A stretch of DNA of 37,152 nucleotides from Campylobacter sp. (GTDB taxonomy: Bacteria > Campylobacterota > Campylobacteria > Campylobacterales > Campylobacteraceae): positions 1-37,152 of the forward strand of contig NZ_JAGCNF010000150.1 in the NCBI RefSeq assembly GCF_017646085.1, read 5' to 3'. The notes beneath the pieces were generated by a model. The model was given only the letters and a program-made list of their open reading frames with translations. It searched no databases and was not told the origin of the DNA. Positions 29,335-37,152 of this stretch are shown piece after piece. How positions within the stretch are numbered: the first letter of the stretch is position 1; every line of letters starts with the position of its first letter. The translations under genes were made by a program, and so were the position numbers.

Positions 29335-29928
29335 TTAAAATATTGCAACACTATAAATAAAGCTTTTATCGCTACATTTTATAATCTCTCCAAAAGCTCC
29401 TAAACTCTCATCGCTAGCCATATCAAGTGCATAAAATCCTAAATTTAAAAGCTTTATCCTAGCCTCTTTTAATGTCCAAATTTTATAAAATTCAATCAGT
29501 TGATTTTTAGAGTTAGCAACCCTTAATCTTTGTTCCTTACTAAAACAAAAATCTATATGGGCGCTAAAATTTCTATCTTTTATAAACTCCAAATCCACCC
29601 CTACCCTAGCAGTACTAATAGCCAAAATAGCACAATTATCGCTATGGCTTAATGAGGTATAAAGTGGTATATTTTTAATATTTTGATAGTTTTTTTCAAA
29701 ATAAATTTTTAAAGACCTAGAGATTTTAAATTGACTATTTTGAGCCAAATTTGGACTATTTTTAAGCTTTATTTTATCATTTAGACTCAAATCATCATAA
29801 CTATAATTATCAAATTTATCACTAAAAAGTAGTAAAATTTCCCCATCTTTTAATTCAAAATTATCCAAATTTAGCAAATCAAATCGCTCAAATTTATCTA
29901 AAACAAATTTAAGATACCAGATTTTCAT
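29335..29928 (-). CDS. Sfp-type 4'-phosphopantetheinyl transferase
   Basis: Activates carrier proteins by attaching phosphopantetheine from CoA. In 197 residues the family motifs are present: SLSHSDNCAILAIS (~92-105), the magnesium-binding VGVDLEFIKDR (Asp112, Glu114) and FYKIWTLKEARIKL (Trp151, Lys154-Glu155). This is the broad-specificity Sfp class used for secondary-metabolite carrier proteins, not the small AcpS of primary metabolism. The start overlaps the MMPL exporter stop (TAATG), placing it in the LolA-like/MMPL transcript of the polyketide-like cluster, so its likely targets are the cluster's own carrier proteins. Confidence 0.88.
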   Translation of the reverse strand: MKIWYLKFVLDKFERFDLLNLDNFELKDGEILLLFSDKFDNYSYDDLSLNDKIKLKNSPNLAQNSQFKISRSLKIYFEKNYQNIKNIPLYTSLSHSDNCAILAISTARVGVDLEFIKDRNFSAHIDFCFSKEQRLRVANSKNQLIEFYKIWTLKEARIKLLNLGFYALDMASDESLGAFGEIIKCSDKSFIYSVAIF

Positions 29929-32150
29929 TACTTAATTTTGCTATTATAGGTAGCATACAAAAGAGCAAAATATGCTAACAAAAACATACATAAAGCCGTA
30001 CTAACTCCAAAACTAAACACTGCATAAGTAGCACTAAATCCAAGCATTCCAAAAGATATAATACTAGTTAAGCTAGCCAAAATAATGCCAAAATATCTCT
30101 CACGCAAAGCCAAATTTAAATTACTAGCAAATAGCACATAATCCACCCCAATAGTACTAGCTAAAATAAATCCAAAAATGGTAAAAATATTAAAACTAAC
30201 CCCGGCTAAAAGCATTATAGCAACACCTATAAATGTCCCAAACAATATAATCCCAACCATCACGCACGCCCTAGCAAAGCTAAAAAAGAATAAAAATATC
30301 CCAAAAGCGCATACATAAGCTAGAAGTTTTAAATATATTGCATACTCTTTTGCTATGGTAAAATTATTACTAATGCTTTGTGTAAGATTAAAATAACTAG
30401 CATTATATTTTTGCAAAATCAAATCAAATTCATCGCTAAATCCAACATCAGAACCGATAAAAATTAAATTCGTATCACTATCGTAAATAAATGGCTCAAG
30501 CGGGTTATTTTGATCAAATTGAGAATTAAACTCATCAAAATTTATGGGGCTAAATTGAGATATATTTTCTAATGAGTTTTTCACTAAATTTAAATCAATT
30601 CCAAGCTCCTTATAAGCTTTTAAAATCTGCTCATTTTTAGCATAATTTTTCAAAGCTAGTTTTAGCTTTATTTGCTCATTTTGACTTAATAAAATCTTGC
30701 TAGCACCTTGATAATTTGTAATATTTAACTCGCTTAAAAGCTTTATTTCTTTTGCTATTTTATCATCATTTGGGCTAAAATTTAATGCTATAAAGCTACT
30801 TTGAAATGGATTTTGGCTAATTTGTAAAAACTTCTTACTTTGAGCTAATAGCTCATCATTTAGCGATGAGTAGTTTCTAATATCATCTTTAAAATCTATA
30901 CTTGGTAAAATATAGATAAAAAATATAATCACACCAAAGACAAATATTGCCATAAAAAATATCAATATTCTTTTAAATTGCAAGATATAAAAGTTAAATT
31001 TTATAAACCCATCAAGCGCTAAATCAAAAATTTTATAGCTTTTAAATTTGCTATTTTCTAAGATATATGGTAGTAAAAAATATGTAGCTATAAACGCACC
31101 TACAAGACTAAAAATAGATATAACAGCTATCTGTTTTAAAAAACCAATTGGAGCTAAAATAAATAGAGCATAGCCTAAAATTGTGATGAATAATCCAATT
31201 AAAAATATCTTTAAAAATCGCCTTATATCATCTTTTTTAATAGCACGACCTTGCACATATCCTAAAAAATGCATCGCAAAATCTAGTATAAGCCCAATTA
31301 AACTAATACTAATAATAATACTAAAAAGTGTTATCTCATCAAATATTAAAAATGCTCCACTAAGCCCACATAAAAAGCTAAAAATAATGACAATAATAAG
31401 CTTAAATATACTATAACTACCAAATGCCAAAATCAACAAAATTCCAATCATTACCAAAGAGAGACTACCCATTATAATACTCTCTTTATTGCCCTCATCT
31501 TTAGCAAATCCAGCAAAAATCTCACTTCCAATAATGAGCAATTCATCCCCATTTTTTTTAGCATTTTCTTTAGCAGTTTTATAAAATTCCAATAGCTTAG
31601 AACTACTAAAATTATCACCTAAAACCCCATAAGCAAAGTAATAAATTTGGTTATTATAAGTAGCTTTTAGGCTTTGGGTTTTTAAATCTAGTGTTAAATT
31701 ACTAGGCATTAAAAGTGTAGAATATGAGTTAAAATTTAAAAAATCATTAGGAATAATTCGGTAGTTAAATGGATTAAATAAATTACTTGCATTAGAGGCA
31801 AAAAACTGCTCTGGTTCATATAAAATTTGATTAAAAATTTTCCTATTTATAGTAGCCAAACTAGTATTATTAAGTGCTGTTAAAAATTTCTGATCAATAT
31901 CATATGTAAGCTTAAATTCGCTAAAAATTTCACTACTACTAAGCTCTTGTAAAAGCTTAAAATTTGAGCTTAAAAACATAATATTTTTAGCATTTTTACT
32001 TTGCATACTCTCTAAAATTGCTGATTCATTAGAATCTAAACTAATAAGAGTGTAAATATCACTTTTAACCTTATTAAGCGAACTAAAGATAAATCCAAGC
32101 ATTAAAAGACTAAAAGTCAAAAATATAATATATATAAGATGTTTTTTCAT
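29928..32150 (-). CDS. MMPL/RND-family lipid-type exporter
   Basis: A 740-residue RND-superfamily protein of the MMPL type: one N-terminal helix (~5-24), a large periplasmic loop (~30-225), a five-to-six-helix bundle (~228-375), a second start helix (~395-415), another periplasmic loop (~420-600) and a final helix bundle (~608-735). Aspartates lie within or near the helix bundles (for example LILDFAMHFLG and GVDYVLFAS), as expected for proton-driven transport. Such MMPL proteins appear in aryl-polyene clusters as inner-membrane exporters, paired with a LolA-like carrier, which is what precedes it here by one base. Confidence 0.87.
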   Translation of the reverse strand: MKKHLIYIIFLTFSLLMLGFIFSSLNKVKSDIYTLISLDSNESAILESMQSKNAKNIMFLSSNFKLLQELSSSEIFSEFKLTYDIDQKFLTALNNTSLATINRKIFNQILYEPEQFFASNASNLFNPFNYRIIPNDFLNFNSYSTLLMPSNLTLDLKTQSLKATYNNQIYYFAYGVLGDNFSSSKLLEFYKTAKENAKKNGDELLIIGSEIFAGFAKDEGNKESIIMGSLSLVMIGILLILAFGSYSIFKLIIVIIFSFLCGLSGAFLIFDEITLFSIIISISLIGLILDFAMHFLGYVQGRAIKKDDIRRFLKIFLIGLFITILGYALFILAPIGFLKQIAVISIFSLVGAFIATYFLLPYILENSKFKSYKIFDLALDGFIKFNFYILQFKRILIFFMAIFVFGVIIFFIYILPSIDFKDDIRNYSSLNDELLAQSKKFLQISQNPFQSSFIALNFSPNDDKIAKEIKLLSELNITNYQGASKILLSQNEQIKLKLALKNYAKNEQILKAYKELGIDLNLVKNSLENISQFSPINFDEFNSQFDQNNPLEPFIYDSDTNLIFIGSDVGFSDEFDLILQKYNASYFNLTQSISNNFTIAKEYAIYLKLLAYVCAFGIFLFFFSFARACVMVGIILFGTFIGVAIMLLAGVSFNIFTIFGFILASTIGVDYVLFASNLNLALRERYFGIILASLTSIISFGMLGFSATYAVFSFGVSTALCMFLLAYFALLYATYNSKIK

Positions 32151-32672
32151 CTAGTTAAATTTAAATTCATTTATAGTCTTATCGCCATTTGCCTCATCAA
32201 AACTCATAATTTCAATATGCTCTTTGCCGCTAATGTTGATTTGATTAAATATCTTTTTTAGCCATATATTTTTTGGTTTTAAATTTAGTTGCCACTGTGC
32301 TTTATTGCCACTTAGGGTTATATCAAACTGCTCTTTTATAGAGTCAAAATCAAAACTTAATAGGCTTAAAATTAACTCTTTATCATAGTTTTGTTCTAAT
32401 TTTTGCCATACATTTTGAGCATTTGCGATCCAAATTCCATCTTTTGTGATTTTAGATTTTTGTTTAATTGGCGATGTTATACTCCATATCAATTCACCAT
32501 TTGCAATCTCAAACTCACCCCTGCTTTGTAAAACCTGATCAAAGTGCTTTAAATGCTTGTTTTGAATAAATTCACCTTTAGTTGAATTTGAGTGAATTTG
32601 TTGTAAATATTCTAAATTAAAAGCATATAAATTTGATAAAAAAATTATAAAAAAAACAGATAAAAATCGCAT
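32151..32672 (-). CDS. LolA-like periplasmic lipid/lipoprotein carrier
   Basis: Predicted secreted 173-residue protein: signal peptide 1-17 with cleavage near NLYA/FN, then a LolA/LolB-type half-barrel with the typical openers GEFIQNKHLKHFDQVLQSRGEFEI and WSITSPIKQKSKITKDGIWI (beta strands), and QLNLKPKNIWLKKIF later. It is not the housekeeping lolA by context: it heads an operon with an MMPL exporter and phosphopantetheinyl transferase, as in aryl-polyene clusters, where a LolA-like protein is thought to carry the lipidic product across the periplasm. Confidence 0.82.
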   Translation of the reverse strand: MRFLSVFFIIFLSNLYAFNLEYLQQIHSNSTKGEFIQNKHLKHFDQVLQSRGEFEIANGELIWSITSPIKQKSKITKDGIWIANAQNVWQKLEQNYDKELILSLLSFDFDSIKEQFDITLSGNKAQWQLNLKPKNIWLKKIFNQINISGKEHIEIMSFDEANGDKTINEFKFN

Positions 32673-32684
32673 AAAATACCCTAA

Positions 32685-32696
32685 ATCATTAATGAT
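32685..32696. promoter_or_regulatory. Perfect palindrome ATCATTAATGAT in the divergent control region
   Basis: A perfect 12-bp palindrome, with flanks that give AAATCATTAATGATAATTT. It lies just after the predicted minus-strand start (TAGAAT -10 at 32711-32706). The sequence is partly similar to a Fur box, but the match is not complete; an operator for the LolA-like operon is inferred. Confidence 0.45.
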
Positions 32697-32720
32697 AATT
32701 TGGGAATTCTAGCAAAAATA

Positions 32721-32742
32721 TGTTAATATTAACAATTATGAT
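32721..32742. promoter_or_regulatory. Palindrome TGTTAATATTAACA plus plus-strand -10
   Basis: A perfect 14-bp palindrome (32721-32734) followed by TATGAT (32737-32742), a fitting -10 for the halogenase-like gene whose AGGAG ribosome-binding site is at 32764-32768. On the other strand the same palindrome falls in the -35 region of the TAGAAT promoter. A dimeric regulator bound here could control both arms. Confidence 0.5.
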
Positions 32743-32773
32743 TTTTAAATTTAGTGATATTTTAGGAGTTTCT

Positions 32774-33982
32774 ATGCGCTGTGTGGATGTTTTAGTTATT
32801 GGCGGTGGCCCTAGCGGGAGCATTGTAAGTGCGTTATTAAACAAACAAGGAATTAAGGTTTTATGTGTTGAAAAGGAAAAATTTCCTCGCTTTGTAATAG
32901 GCGAGAGTCTATTGCCAAACTGTATGAATATCTTGCGTGAGGCTGGATTTTTAGAAGCAGTTGAAGCATATGGATTTCAGTACAAAAATGGGGCTGCATT
33001 TAGCTGGAAAGATGAATATAGATATTTTGATTTTTGTGACAAATCTAGCAATGGCGATGGTACAACATTTCAAGTTCAAAGGGCAGTTTTTGATAAAATT
33101 TTAATAGATGAAGCAATAAAGCAAGGCGTTGAAGTATGCTTTGAAACTGCTGTAGAAGATATAAATTTCTTAGATCAATACACAGAAGCAACACTATCAG
33201 ATGGCCAAAAAATTCAAGCAAAATATATAATAGACGCTAGTGGATACGGTAGAGTTTTACCTCGCAAGCTAAACCTAGAAGTGCCTTCAACTCTATCTCC
33301 TAAAAAAGCTTATTTTACACATATTAAAGATAATATTGATGAAATTCTATACGATAGAAAAAAGATTTTAATTACAACCCATCCTGAATTTAGAGATGTT
33401 TGGTTTTGGCTAATTCCTTTTTCTAATGGTCGTTGCAGCATTGGAGTAGTAGGCGAAGAATCTAGATTAAATATAAACTCAAGTGACGAAGATACCCTAA
33501 AACATCATGTTTATCTAGCCCCGATGTTAAAAAGGCTTTTAGAGAAAGCAGTTTGGGATACGCCTATTAGGACAATTAGCTCATATTCTAAAGATGTTAA
33601 GCAACTATATGGTCACAGATATGTGCTTTTAGGCAATGCAAGTGAATTTTTAGACCCAGTATTTAGTTCAGGAGTTACAATTGCTATGGTTTCAGCTAAG
33701 CTTGCAAGTCAAGTTGTAACAAAGATATTAAATGGTGATCAAGTTGATATGCAAAAAGAGTATGTAGAACCGCTAATGTTTGGTATCAATACATTTAGGA
33801 CATATGTTGAGGGTTGGTATAATACTAAATTCCAAGATGTAATCTACGCAAAAGATGAAAATCATAAAGTAAAAAGGCAAATTTGCTCTATTTTAGCAGG
33901 GTATGCGTGGGATCATACTAATCCATATGCAACCAGATCCAATGAAGCATTAGAAGTATTGGCTCAAATTTGCAAAAGATAA
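32774..33982 (+). CDS. FAD-dependent halogenase-like oxidoreductase
   Basis: Start taken at the ATG at 32774 because AGGAG lies five bases upstream and the product begins RCVDVLVIGGGPSGS, the dinucleotide-binding fold (GGGPSG); a start at 32720 would put 18 unlikely residues ahead and lies in the promoter palindrome. The 402-residue flavoprotein has GESLLPNCMNILREAGF (~43-59), the K-x-GA-x-F motif with Lys71, WFWLIP at 210-215 fitting the flavin-halogenase WxWxIP motif, and a late LGNASEFLDPVFSSGV (GNA in place of the usual GDA). Flavoproteins of this kind occur in aryl-polyene clusters. Whether it halogenates, hydroxylates or desaturates is unknown. Confidence 0.82.
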   Translation: MRCVDVLVIGGGPSGSIVSALLNKQGIKVLCVEKEKFPRFVIGESLLPNCMNILREAGFLEAVEAYGFQYKNGAAFSWKDEYRYFDFCDKSSNGDGTTFQVQRAVFDKILIDEAIKQGVEVCFETAVEDINFLDQYTEATLSDGQKIQAKYIIDASGYGRVLPRKLNLEVPSTLSPKKAYFTHIKDNIDEILYDRKKILITTHPEFRDVWFWLIPFSNGRCSIGVVGEESRLNINSSDEDTLKHHVYLAPMLKRLLEKAVWDTPIRTISSYSKDVKQLYGHRYVLLGNASEFLDPVFSSGVTIAMVSAKLASQVVTKILNGDQVDMQKEYVEPLMFGINTFRTYVEGWYNTKFQDVIYAKDENHKVKRQICSILAGYAWDHTNPYATRSNEALEVLAQICKR

Positions 33983-34320
33983 TTTTAATTATACTAGCCT
34001 CTATATTTTTAGGCTGCGCTAAGTATCAAGTTCCAAATCTAGATATAACTCAAAAGCGCTTTAGTGTAGATATTGATGGGGCTATTTATTTGCTATATAT
34101 TTCTAAAAATGATGGGTATTATTTTGCCCTTTTTGACTCTTTTGGTGCACCACAATCTAGTAAAGTGCTAAAAAATGGAACCTTTAAATCTACTAAATTT
34201 CTACCTAGAAATAGCTTTTATGATCAGCTATTTATTGAGAGTTTAGATATTTTACAAAAAAATTTAAAGGTCAAAGAATTTATTTTAGATAATAAAAAAA
34301 TTAGGATGGTAGAAATTTGA
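33970..34320 (+). CDS. Small lipoprotein, DUF3261-like
   Basis: 116 residues from a TTG start overlapping the flavoprotein by 13 bases: signal peptide IILIILASIF with lipobox FLGC (Cys16). The mature domain is beta-rich (SVDIDGAIYLLYISKNDGYYFALFD). Its place between the flavoprotein and a ketosynthase is where DUF3261 lipoproteins are found in aryl-polyene clusters; sequence resemblance is weak, and it is shorter than the usual ~180-200 residues. Probably an outer-membrane anchor for product handling. No ATG alternative preserves the lipobox. Confidence 0.7.
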   Translation: MQKIILIILASIFLGCAKYQVPNLDITQKRFSVDIDGAIYLLYISKNDGYYFALFDSFGAPQSSKVLKNGTFKSTKFLPRNSFYDQLFIESLDILQKNLKVKEFILDNKKIRMVEI

Positions 34321-35465
34321 GTATATATATTAACGCATATGATGGTATTTGTAGCCTTGGTAACAATAAAAATGAGATAATGCAAAATATTTTTAAATGC
34401 AAACCATCAGCTACTAAAAACCAAATTCAATCAAAAGATTTTATGGTTGGTAAAATAGAAAATTTGCAAGATTTTAGTAAAGATGTAAAAGAGATATACA
34501 AAACACGAACCAATTTAATTCTTCACCATCTACTACTTAATATGCAAGAGCCTTTAAATGAGCTTTTTGCCAAATTTAGCAAAGATAAAATTGCAGTAAT
34601 TATCGGTACCACAACAGCTGGTGTGGAAGAGAATTATAAATCTATAAAAAAAGTTGAGTCTGATCTATTTTTTATGCGCAACTCACTAGGTAATCCAAGC
34701 GAGTTTATTAAAGATTTTTTAGGATTAAACTCATTAGCCTTTGGCCTCTCATGCGCTTGTACATCTGGAGCAAAGGTCTTTATAGAGGCTGCTAGATTGC
34801 TTGAGTCAAATTTATGCGATGCAGTGATATGTGGTGGCGTAGATAGCTTAAATACTCTTACAATATATGGCTTTGATAGTCTAGAAATTCTAAGTCAAAA
34901 TAATGCATTGCCATTTTCAAATAATAGAGATGGAATCAATATCTCTGAAGGTGCAGCGCTTTTTATACTTAGTAAAGATATAGCAGATATAAAGCTTAAA
35001 GGTTTTGCTACTAATAATGATGCCTTTCATATTACCAAACCAAATGAAAACTTCACCGCACAAAAAGATGCTATTATAAGCGCATTAAATATGGCTAATT
35101 TAAATACTAGTGATATTGATTATATAAACCTTCATGGTACTGGCACTAACGCTAATGATAAAATGGAGGCAAATTTAATCAATAATATATTTCCTAATAC
35201 TTCATGTAGCAGCACAAAGGGACTAATGGGGCACACGCTTGGTGCTGCTGGTGCATTAGAAGCTCTAATCTGTGCTGATATTATAAATCAAAGCCTACAA
35301 AATAGTCAAAGCCAGCTACCACCGCACCATTATGATGGAATATATGATAAAGAACTACCAGTAATTAATCTAGCTAGGCTAAATACAAATTCAAAAATCA
35401 AAAACTGCCTATCAATCTCATTTGCCTTTGGCGGGGACAATAGTGCTATTATTTTAGGAGTATAA
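34317..35465 (+). CDS. Beta-ketoacyl-ACP synthase (KAS II/APE type)
   Basis: Condensing enzyme extending carrier-bound acyl chains with malonyl units. The 382-residue protein has the full Cys-His-His set: Cys148 in SCACTSGA, His273 in NLHGTGTNAND and His306 in GLMGHTLGAAGALE, so it is a catalytic subunit and not a chain-length factor. It begins with a TTG inside the stop of the lipoprotein (TTGA overlap) and ends one base before the ApeP-type gene. In aryl-polyene clusters a KAS precedes the ApeP dehydratase and ApeQ reductase, the same order as here. Confidence 0.87.
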   Translation: MSIYINAYDGICSLGNNKNEIMQNIFKCKPSATKNQIQSKDFMVGKIENLQDFSKDVKEIYKTRTNLILHHLLLNMQEPLNELFAKFSKDKIAVIIGTTTAGVEENYKSIKKVESDLFFMRNSLGNPSEFIKDFLGLNSLAFGLSCACTSGAKVFIEAARLLESNLCDAVICGGVDSLNTLTIYGFDSLEILSQNNALPFSNNRDGINISEGAALFILSKDIADIKLKGFATNNDAFHITKPNENFTAQKDAIISALNMANLNTSDIDYINLHGTGTNANDKMEANLINNIFPNTSCSSTKGLMGHTLGAAGALEALICADIINQSLQNSQSQLPPHHYDGIYDKELPVINLARLNTNSKIKNCLSISFAFGGDNSAIILGV

Positions 35466-35906
35466 ATGTATATTCAAGAGCTAATTCCTCATAGCGGAGC
35501 GATGGTCTTAGTAGATGATATCGTAGAGAAAAAAGATGATTTTATCAGCGTTAAAACGCTTATTAAGTATGATAATCCATTTTTACAAGATGGGAAATTT
35601 CCTACATTTAACACTCTAGAAATTATGGCACAAAGCTTAGTTGTATATCGTGGCTTAAATGATAAAGGCTCAAATACTAGACTTGGATTTTTGCTTGGGG
35701 CTAGGAGATTTGAGATTATAAAGCCAAATTTAAATATAGGTGATGAGCTAATTACTAAAACTTATATTTCAGAGGATTTTGATGGGATGGGAGTCTATGA
35801 AAGTAGCGTATATGTAGATGACAAATTAGTAGCTAGTGCTAGCATTAGCGTATTTAACCCATCTCAAGAACAACTAGATCAAATTTTAAAGGCAAGTAAT
35901 GAGTAA
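35466..35906 (+). CDS. ApeP-type 3-hydroxyacyl-ACP dehydratase
   Basis: Hot-dog-fold dehydratase of 146 residues resembling the ApeP family: IPHSGAMVLVDDIVE at the start supplies His9, and NTLEIMAQSLVVY supplies the catalytic Glu52 in the central helix, as in FabA/FabZ. The chain-length-defining LGFLLGARRFEI strand and the KASISVFNP-type C-terminus follow. It would remove water from 3-hydroxyacyl-ACP to leave the conjugated double bonds of a polyene. It overlaps the next gene by eight bases. Confidence 0.85.
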   Translation: MYIQELIPHSGAMVLVDDIVEKKDDFISVKTLIKYDNPFLQDGKFPTFNTLEIMAQSLVVYRGLNDKGSNTRLGFLLGARRFEIIKPNLNIGDELITKTYISEDFDGMGVYESSVYVDDKLVASASISVFNPSQEQLDQILKASNE

Positions 35907-36612
35907 AACAGTATTAATAACAGGCTCAAGTCGTGGTATAGGCCTTGGCGTAGCAAGAAGATTAAAACAAAATGGATATGAGATTATTTTACATGGCAAA
36001 AGCCAAAGCGATGCACTAAAAAAGGCTCAAGATGAGCTTAATGCAAAGGCTTTAATATTTGATGTAGCAAATACAGATGAGTGCAAAGCAGTACTTGAGG
36101 ATTATACTAATACTAATCCAGCCCTATGGGGTATAGTTTTAAATGCTGGTATCACTTGCGATAATACCTTTGTAGCTCTTGAAGAAAATGAGTGGAAAAA
36201 TGTAATTGATGTAAATTTAAATAGCTTTTATAATGTCTTAAAGCCACTTTTAATGCCAATTATAAGACAAAAAGCTGGTAGAATCATAGTAATGAGCTCA
36301 GTCTCAGGTATAATTGGCAATAGAGGCCAAAGCAATTATAGTGCTTCAAAAGCTGGATTAATAGGCGCTTCAAAAGCCCTAGCTGTTGAATTAGCAAGCC
36401 GTAATATTACAGTTAATGTAGTAGCCCCAGGGCTTATTGATACTGAACTTACAAATGATAAAAATCTCCCTATTGAAGAGATTTTAAAAGCTATACCAGC
36501 TAGACGCAGTGGGAGCATAGATGAAGTTAGCGGACTAGTAAATTTTTTATTAAGCAATGAGGCTAGCTATATTACAAGACAAGTTATTGGAGTTAATGGA
36601 GGTTTGTGTTGA
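35899..36612 (+). CDS. FabG-type 3-ketoacyl-ACP reductase
   Basis: NADPH-dependent short-chain dehydrogenase reducing 3-ketoacyl-ACP. The 237-residue protein has TGSSRGIG (8-15), NAGIT (82-86), and a full tetrad with Ser134, Tyr147 and Lys151 (YSASK); the APGLIDTE and final GVNGG are classical FabG ends. Its position after the ApeP-type dehydratase matches ApeQ. It is separate from any housekeeping fabG, which is not in the window. The stop overlaps the next ketosynthase start as TTGA. Confidence 0.88.
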   Translation: MSKTVLITGSSRGIGLGVARRLKQNGYEIILHGKSQSDALKKAQDELNAKALIFDVANTDECKAVLEDYTNTNPALWGIVLNAGITCDNTFVALEENEWKNVIDVNLNSFYNVLKPLLMPIIRQKAGRIIVMSSVSGIIGNRGQSNYSASKAGLIGASKALAVELASRNITVNVVAPGLIDTELTNDKNLPIEEILKAIPARRSGSIDEVSGLVNFLLSNEASYITRQVIGVNGGLC

Positions 36613-37152
36613 GAGTATTTATAACAGGATATGGAATCGTAAGCGCCTTTGGTAAGAGCTGGGCTGAGTTTAGGTCTGCTTTATTAAAAAAACAAAATGC
36701 AGTTAAATATATGAAAGATTGGGAACAATATAAGGAGCTAACCACATATCTTGGTGCGCCAATTTTAGACTATCATTATCCAAAGGATTGGAGCAGAAAG
36801 CAGCTAAGAAGCCTAGGTAGAGTCTCGCAATATAGTGTTGAAGCTGCTGGACTGGCTTTACAAATGGCTGGACTTTATAAAGATGAGAGAATTCAAGATG
36901 GTAGAATGGGTGTAGCTAGTGGTTCTAGTACTGGAAGTACAGATGCAGTTATGCAACTTGCAAAGCTTTTATTTATGGGAGAGAGTGATTGTAATGCAAA
37001 TTCATATATAAAATCAATGCCGCACACTACAGCGGCAAATATAGCTATATTTTATGGCTTAAAAGGTAGAATGATTCCTACATCATCAGCTTGTACTTCG
37101 GCTTCACACGCTATAGGTTACTCATATGAGGCTATTAAATATGGCCAAATTC
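36609..37152 (+). CDS. Second beta-ketoacyl-ACP synthase, 5' part (cut by window end)
   Basis: Open to the window edge (181 codons visible). From the TTG at 36609, overlapping the fabG-type stop, the product begins RVFITGYGIVSAFGKSW, the KAS II N-terminus, and reaches the active-site cysteine Cys162 in SSACTSASHAIG. The cysteine makes it a catalytic ketosynthase, not a chain-length factor. Histidines lie outside the window. In aryl-polyene clusters a ketosynthase (ApeR-type) follows ApeQ at this place; type assignment by position only. Confidence 0.85.
   Translation, partial: MRVFITGYGIVSAFGKSWAEFRSALLKKQNAVKYMKDWEQYKELTTYLGAPILDYHYPKDWSRKQLRSLGRVSQYSVEAAGLALQMAGLYKDERIQDGRMGVASGSSTGSTDAVMQLAKLLFMGESDCNANSYIKSMPHTTAANIAIFYGLKGRMIPTSSACTSASHAIGYSYEAIKYGQI

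Follow-up and report, generated by a model that had tools for sequence, protein, structure and literature searches.

An aryl polyene biosynthetic cluster divided over three contigs of a Campylobacter assembly

The closest described counterparts of the locus examined here are the apeA-R clusters of Escherichia coli CFT073 and Xenorhabdus doucetiae and the xanthomonadin clusters of Xanthomonas and Lysobacter, which are likewise type II polyketide synthase (PKS) clusters for aryl polyenes (APEs). In E. coli, the gene for the aryl starter sits outside the APE cluster (PMC8253772), and we treat a starter source as accessory rather than defining; xanthomonadin clusters obtain their starter from a XanB2-type chorismatase (PMC3949708). 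Xanthomonas clusters also contain a halogenase gene, and their pigments are brominated (PMC3691225).

The window, by which we mean the whole stretch of DNA that was analyzed (37,152 nucleotides), is the entire contig C130 of a Campylobacter assembly that comprises 150 contigs and 1.43 Mb. Nine open reading frames (ORFs) occupy its last 7.8 kb, and their coordinates and strands agree with those given in a first-pass annotation that had proposed half of an APE cluster at this contig end. Pfam and NCBIfam scans support family assignments for seven of the nine, including the N-terminal half of a second ketosynthase. We consider it about 95% probable that a complete APE cluster of the ordinary kind is split over three contigs (C130, C47, and C41) and that this end holds its first half. 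The protein families in the window, the genes found on the two other contigs, and the closest structures, which are APE proteins, all support the APE proposal.

Counterparts of C, D, E, F, G, H, I, J, K, L, M, O, P, Q, and R of the E. coli and X. doucetiae clusters are present here, with a lipoprotein in place of N, and the half-size chain-length factor (CLF) and two acyl carrier proteins (ACPs) are common to all of them. Relative to E. coli apeA-R (PMC8253772), the gene set is short of the ApeB methyltransferase and additionally includes a phosphopantetheinyl transferase (PPTase) and a flavoprotein. The order is circularly permuted, such that N-O-P-Q-R precede C-D-E-F-G-H and the following genes. 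Moreover, L and M are placed in a divergent arm with the cluster's own PPTase, and H and I are fused.

Comparison with solved structures (ApeO, ApeC, ApeP, ApeI, and ApeR) is decisive for the predicted APE identity. On the forward strand, the elongation ketosynthase (KS1, ApeO; 34317..35465; PF00109/PF02801) has the ApeO structure 6qsp_A as its top PDB match, at 224 bits versus 116 for the best non-APE structure. Its residues C148, H273, and H306 are invariant across 12 homologues. This gene is followed by an ApeP dehydratase (35466..35906), which exceeds the PF22817 cut-off and has 6qsr_B as its top PDB match, and by an ApeQ/FabG-type ketoreductase (35899..36612) with PF13561 and NF004200 above cut-off. 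The last forward gene encodes the N-terminal 182 amino acids of the ApeR ketosynthase (KS2; 36606..37151); the window stops inside it because contig C130 itself stops there. The catalytic cysteine of KS2 falls inside the window and both of its histidines on C47. The catalytic cysteines claimed at first pass for both ketosynthases, and the two histidines claimed for KS1, are in place. A full-length KS2 homologue in the related genome G005 matches 4ewg (475 bits) and 7f27 (434 bits), both ApeR, ahead of the next structure at 243 bits. The structure 4ewg has been identified as ApeR, and an ApeR structure from Acinetobacter baumannii has also been described (PMC8358021).

Upstream of KS1, the position of ApeN is taken by a small lipoprotein gene (33970..34320, forward strand) whose product has a lipobox-like LGC motif. 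The cysteine of this motif, Cys16, is invariant in 9 sequences. Neither this protein nor its homologues gave a DUF3261 match, and the protein stayed below the threshold of every Pfam family.

The continuation of the cluster was located by searching the same genome for carrier proteins, which revealed two adjacent PP-binding ACPs on C47. The end of the window and the start of C47 overlap by 17 identical bases, and the KS2 reading frame passes from the window into C47, where it is completed (L037:2-688). In G005, the same genes run unbroken on one contig across the C130/C47 junction, with 94 to 95% identity. C47 encodes the KS2 C terminus, a 142-amino-acid exported protein, the CLF, an acyltransferase, the two ACPs, a 189-amino-acid membrane protein, and the first part of an AMP-ligase. 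The CLF is a half-size, cysteine-less PF13723 protein of 226 amino acids. C41 carries the end of the ligase, fused to an ApeI domain, and then a GT2 glycosyltransferase, a Lip_A acyltransferase, and a 4HBT thioesterase; beyond the cluster lie an oxygenase on the opposite strand and a chemoreceptor-like gene. The ApeI domain scores slightly below the Pfam cut-off (26.7 versus 28.5) and has the PDB match 6qsr_A. Two ACPs, an AMP-ligase, and a cysteine-less CLF, all of which had been predicted to lie downstream, are thus present in APE order on C47 and C41, as are the glycosyltransferase, acyltransferases, and thioesterase that were expected past position 37152. Together, the three contigs lay out a complete APE pathway in one Campylobacter lineage.

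Between C47 and C41, an assembly gap removes about 160 nucleotides of the AMP-ligase gene, and the spacing of the two ligase pieces is ~163 bases in both G005 and a second relative, G007. The last ~100 bases of C47 (L037:4378-4477) diverge from the AMP-ligase of these two genomes and read as unrelated sequence; this contig tip is probably an assembly chimera.

The reverse-strand arm is made up of three genes. The PPTase (29335..29928), of the Sfp/HetI/AcpT type, scores 36.7 bits against PF01648, above cut-off, and direct reading of its sequence reveals a WTLKEARIK motif. Most Campylobacter APE clusters have a homologue of this PPTase, which should activate both ACPs of the cluster. The putative ApeM-like exporter (29928..32150; 740 amino acids) contains many hydrophobic segments and matched no Pfam family above threshold. 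Its assignment as an RND/MMPL exporter rests on position, on homology to proteins in the equivalent position of other APE clusters, and on a weak match (E of about 0.001) between a four-sequence exporter profile and AcrB-type RND pumps. The third gene (32151..32672) encodes an ApeL-like, LolA-type periplasmic carrier with a PF03548 score of 36 bits. A promoter scan of the gap between the two arms returned two matches, which is the chance level.

Two other identities for the cluster deserve consideration. A flexirubin or dialkylresorcinol-hybrid cluster, in which DarA/DarB would accompany APE genes and the product would differ from a plain APE lipid, is suggested by flexirubin models among the NCBIfam matches of the reductase and of the LolA-type carrier, whose top match there is flexirubin LolA2; these models score far under their cut-offs, however. 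The best structure for the flavoprotein, 3nix, can also be counted on that side, as it is a bacterial flavoprotein whose record assigns it to no pathway. Yet no DarA/DarB-type gene was found within the cluster or in the sequence directly adjoining it, and the ketosynthases and dehydratase match ApeO, ApeR, and ApeP, which makes a hybrid of this kind highly improbable.

We give even less credence to a second fatty acid synthase module that would make an ordinary or unusual lipid and no aryl polyene. Taken singly, the enzymes are indeed relatives of FabF, FabG, and FabZ, but the half-size CLF has ApeC (6qsp_B/7f28_A) as its only match in the PDB, the dehydratases match ApeP and ApeI, the ApeR match is well above FabF, and the cluster contains no enoyl reductase.

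Returning to the APE reading, we infer a product, a lipid anchor, and a route of transport from the gene content and family memberships found here. The PPTase would arm the two ACPs, and the AMP-ligase would place an aryl acid, normally 4-hydroxybenzoate, on one of them. Malonyl units would then be added by ApeR and ApeO together with the half-size ApeC chain-length factor, with every unit reduced by ApeQ and dehydrated by ApeP and the ApeI domain; as no enoyl reduction would take place, a conjugated polyene should result. The thioesterase, acyltransferases, and glycosyltransferase are predicted to join the polyene to a lipid anchor, and the RND/MMPL pump and LolA-type carrier to deliver the molecule to the outer membrane; there it probably serves as an antioxidant, yellow membrane pigment.

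The source of the aryl starter is less straightforward. A starter ammonia-lyase had been expected past position 37152; no aromatic ammonia-lyase was detected anywhere in the genome, nor was a XanB2-type chorismatase of the kind that supplies xanthomonadin clusters. UbiC was detected neither in this genome nor in 120 relatives searched with a model that is insensitive to divergent members, as evidenced by Neisseria matches of only about 1e-9. Because of this insensitivity, the absence of UbiC is suggestive, short of proof. Several APE-bearing genomes outside the group likewise had no detectable match. Literature searches found no paper linking Campylobacter to chorismate lyase and 4-hydroxybenzoate and gave no useful result on yellow pigment in Campylobacter. 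Tentatively, the Campylobacterota starter might come from an enzyme outside the UbiC, aromatic ammonia-lyase, and XanB2 routes, or be a host-derived acid, and, given the halogenase-like enzyme, the pigment might be a halogenated aryl polyene. The locus raises a concrete question: where does the aryl starter originate in bacteria without a detected ubiquinone-type chorismate lyase?

In seven relatives from another genus (g10; G024, G043, G047, G051, G055, G059, and G063), a distant KS1-like gene (32 to 34%) occurs along with a gene of the aromatic ammonia-lyase family (PF00221), possibly representing a different polyene or a related pathway.

The first forward gene of the window (32774..33982; PF04820) encodes an FAD-dependent, halogenase-like enzyme. 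Its ORF is listed from 32720, but the start is probably 32774, because the methionine immediately before VDVLVIGGGPSG yields 402 amino acids, which matches the length of the homologues. A WxWxIP motif, an FxxPxxSxG motif, and an active-site lysine are features of flavin-dependent halogenases. The protein has GxGxxG, WFWLIP (WxWxIP), FLDPVFSSG (FxxPxxSxG), and the lysine in GFQYKNGA, as aligned with ChlB4 and 5buk. After 3nix, at 364 bits, the next PDB matches are the halogenases ChlB4, 5buk, PltA, and CmlS. The enzyme may add a halogen (or a hydroxyl group) to the aryl head. We considered the flavoprotein as a special mark of this cluster and rejected the idea; Pseudomonas, Neisseria, Shewanella, and other bacteria have the gene as a standard part of their APE clusters, and because it is so common, we regard it as an accessory step with no novelty.

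The first-pass annotation had called such a cluster, and its divergent arms, unusual in Campylobacter. Rarity was rejected on genome sample counts and on an earlier passing mention of APE clusters in Campylobacter (PMC8549736): about 16 of 73 sampled family genomes, this one included, have a KS1 homologue above 200 bits, including 7 from the same genus. The same cluster was found in at least 12 other Campylobacteraceae genomes and in many proteobacteria. It is a known type of cluster that is carried by many Campylobacter species. Genes and core order are shared among the Campylobacteraceae clusters (G001, G002, G006, G019, G050, G054, and others), with gene order somewhat variable, e.g., in L039. 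Most form a single-strand operon with the PPTase first and LolA-MMPL last where the end is visible, whereas here the PPTase, LolA, and exporter genes form the divergent arm. In L046 (G010), the flavoprotein is absent ahead of KS1, and the gene for the 142-amino-acid protein in L053 (G030) is followed by Fe-S protein-like and unidentified genes in place of the remaining cluster.

Nor are the divergent arms unique, as they recur in an uncultured Helicobacteraceae metagenome-assembled genome (MAG), Lapin-002 bin38 (L058), whose KS1 is 52% identical. This MAG differs in having a DNA methylase-like gene (PF01555; L058:7533-8450) between its two arms and a longer glycosyltransferase (557 amino acids). 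Trees of KS1 and KS2 place all Campylobacterota sequences in a single clade (100/100) beside Neisseriaceae and Pasteurellaceae, and the window pair (G000 and G005) groups with L058 (100/99 for KS1 and 100/100 for KS2). Transfer between the family of the window pair and the Helicobacteraceae is the simplest reading and is probable.

A near relative provides a view of loss. The flank in G007 is about 97% identical to that of the genome studied here, and an APE remnant lies at the same locus (L057:7416-10315), in which the PPTase is still full length and the exporter, KS1, CLF, 189-amino-acid protein, and ligase survive as fragments; the other APE genes were lost through nested internal deletions. 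Gain and loss of the cluster can thus be compared at one locus. The left flank of the cluster (window:28253-29299), which G007 shares, encodes a radical-SAM protein resembling the MqnC/MqnE-type enzymes of the futalosine pathway to menaquinone.
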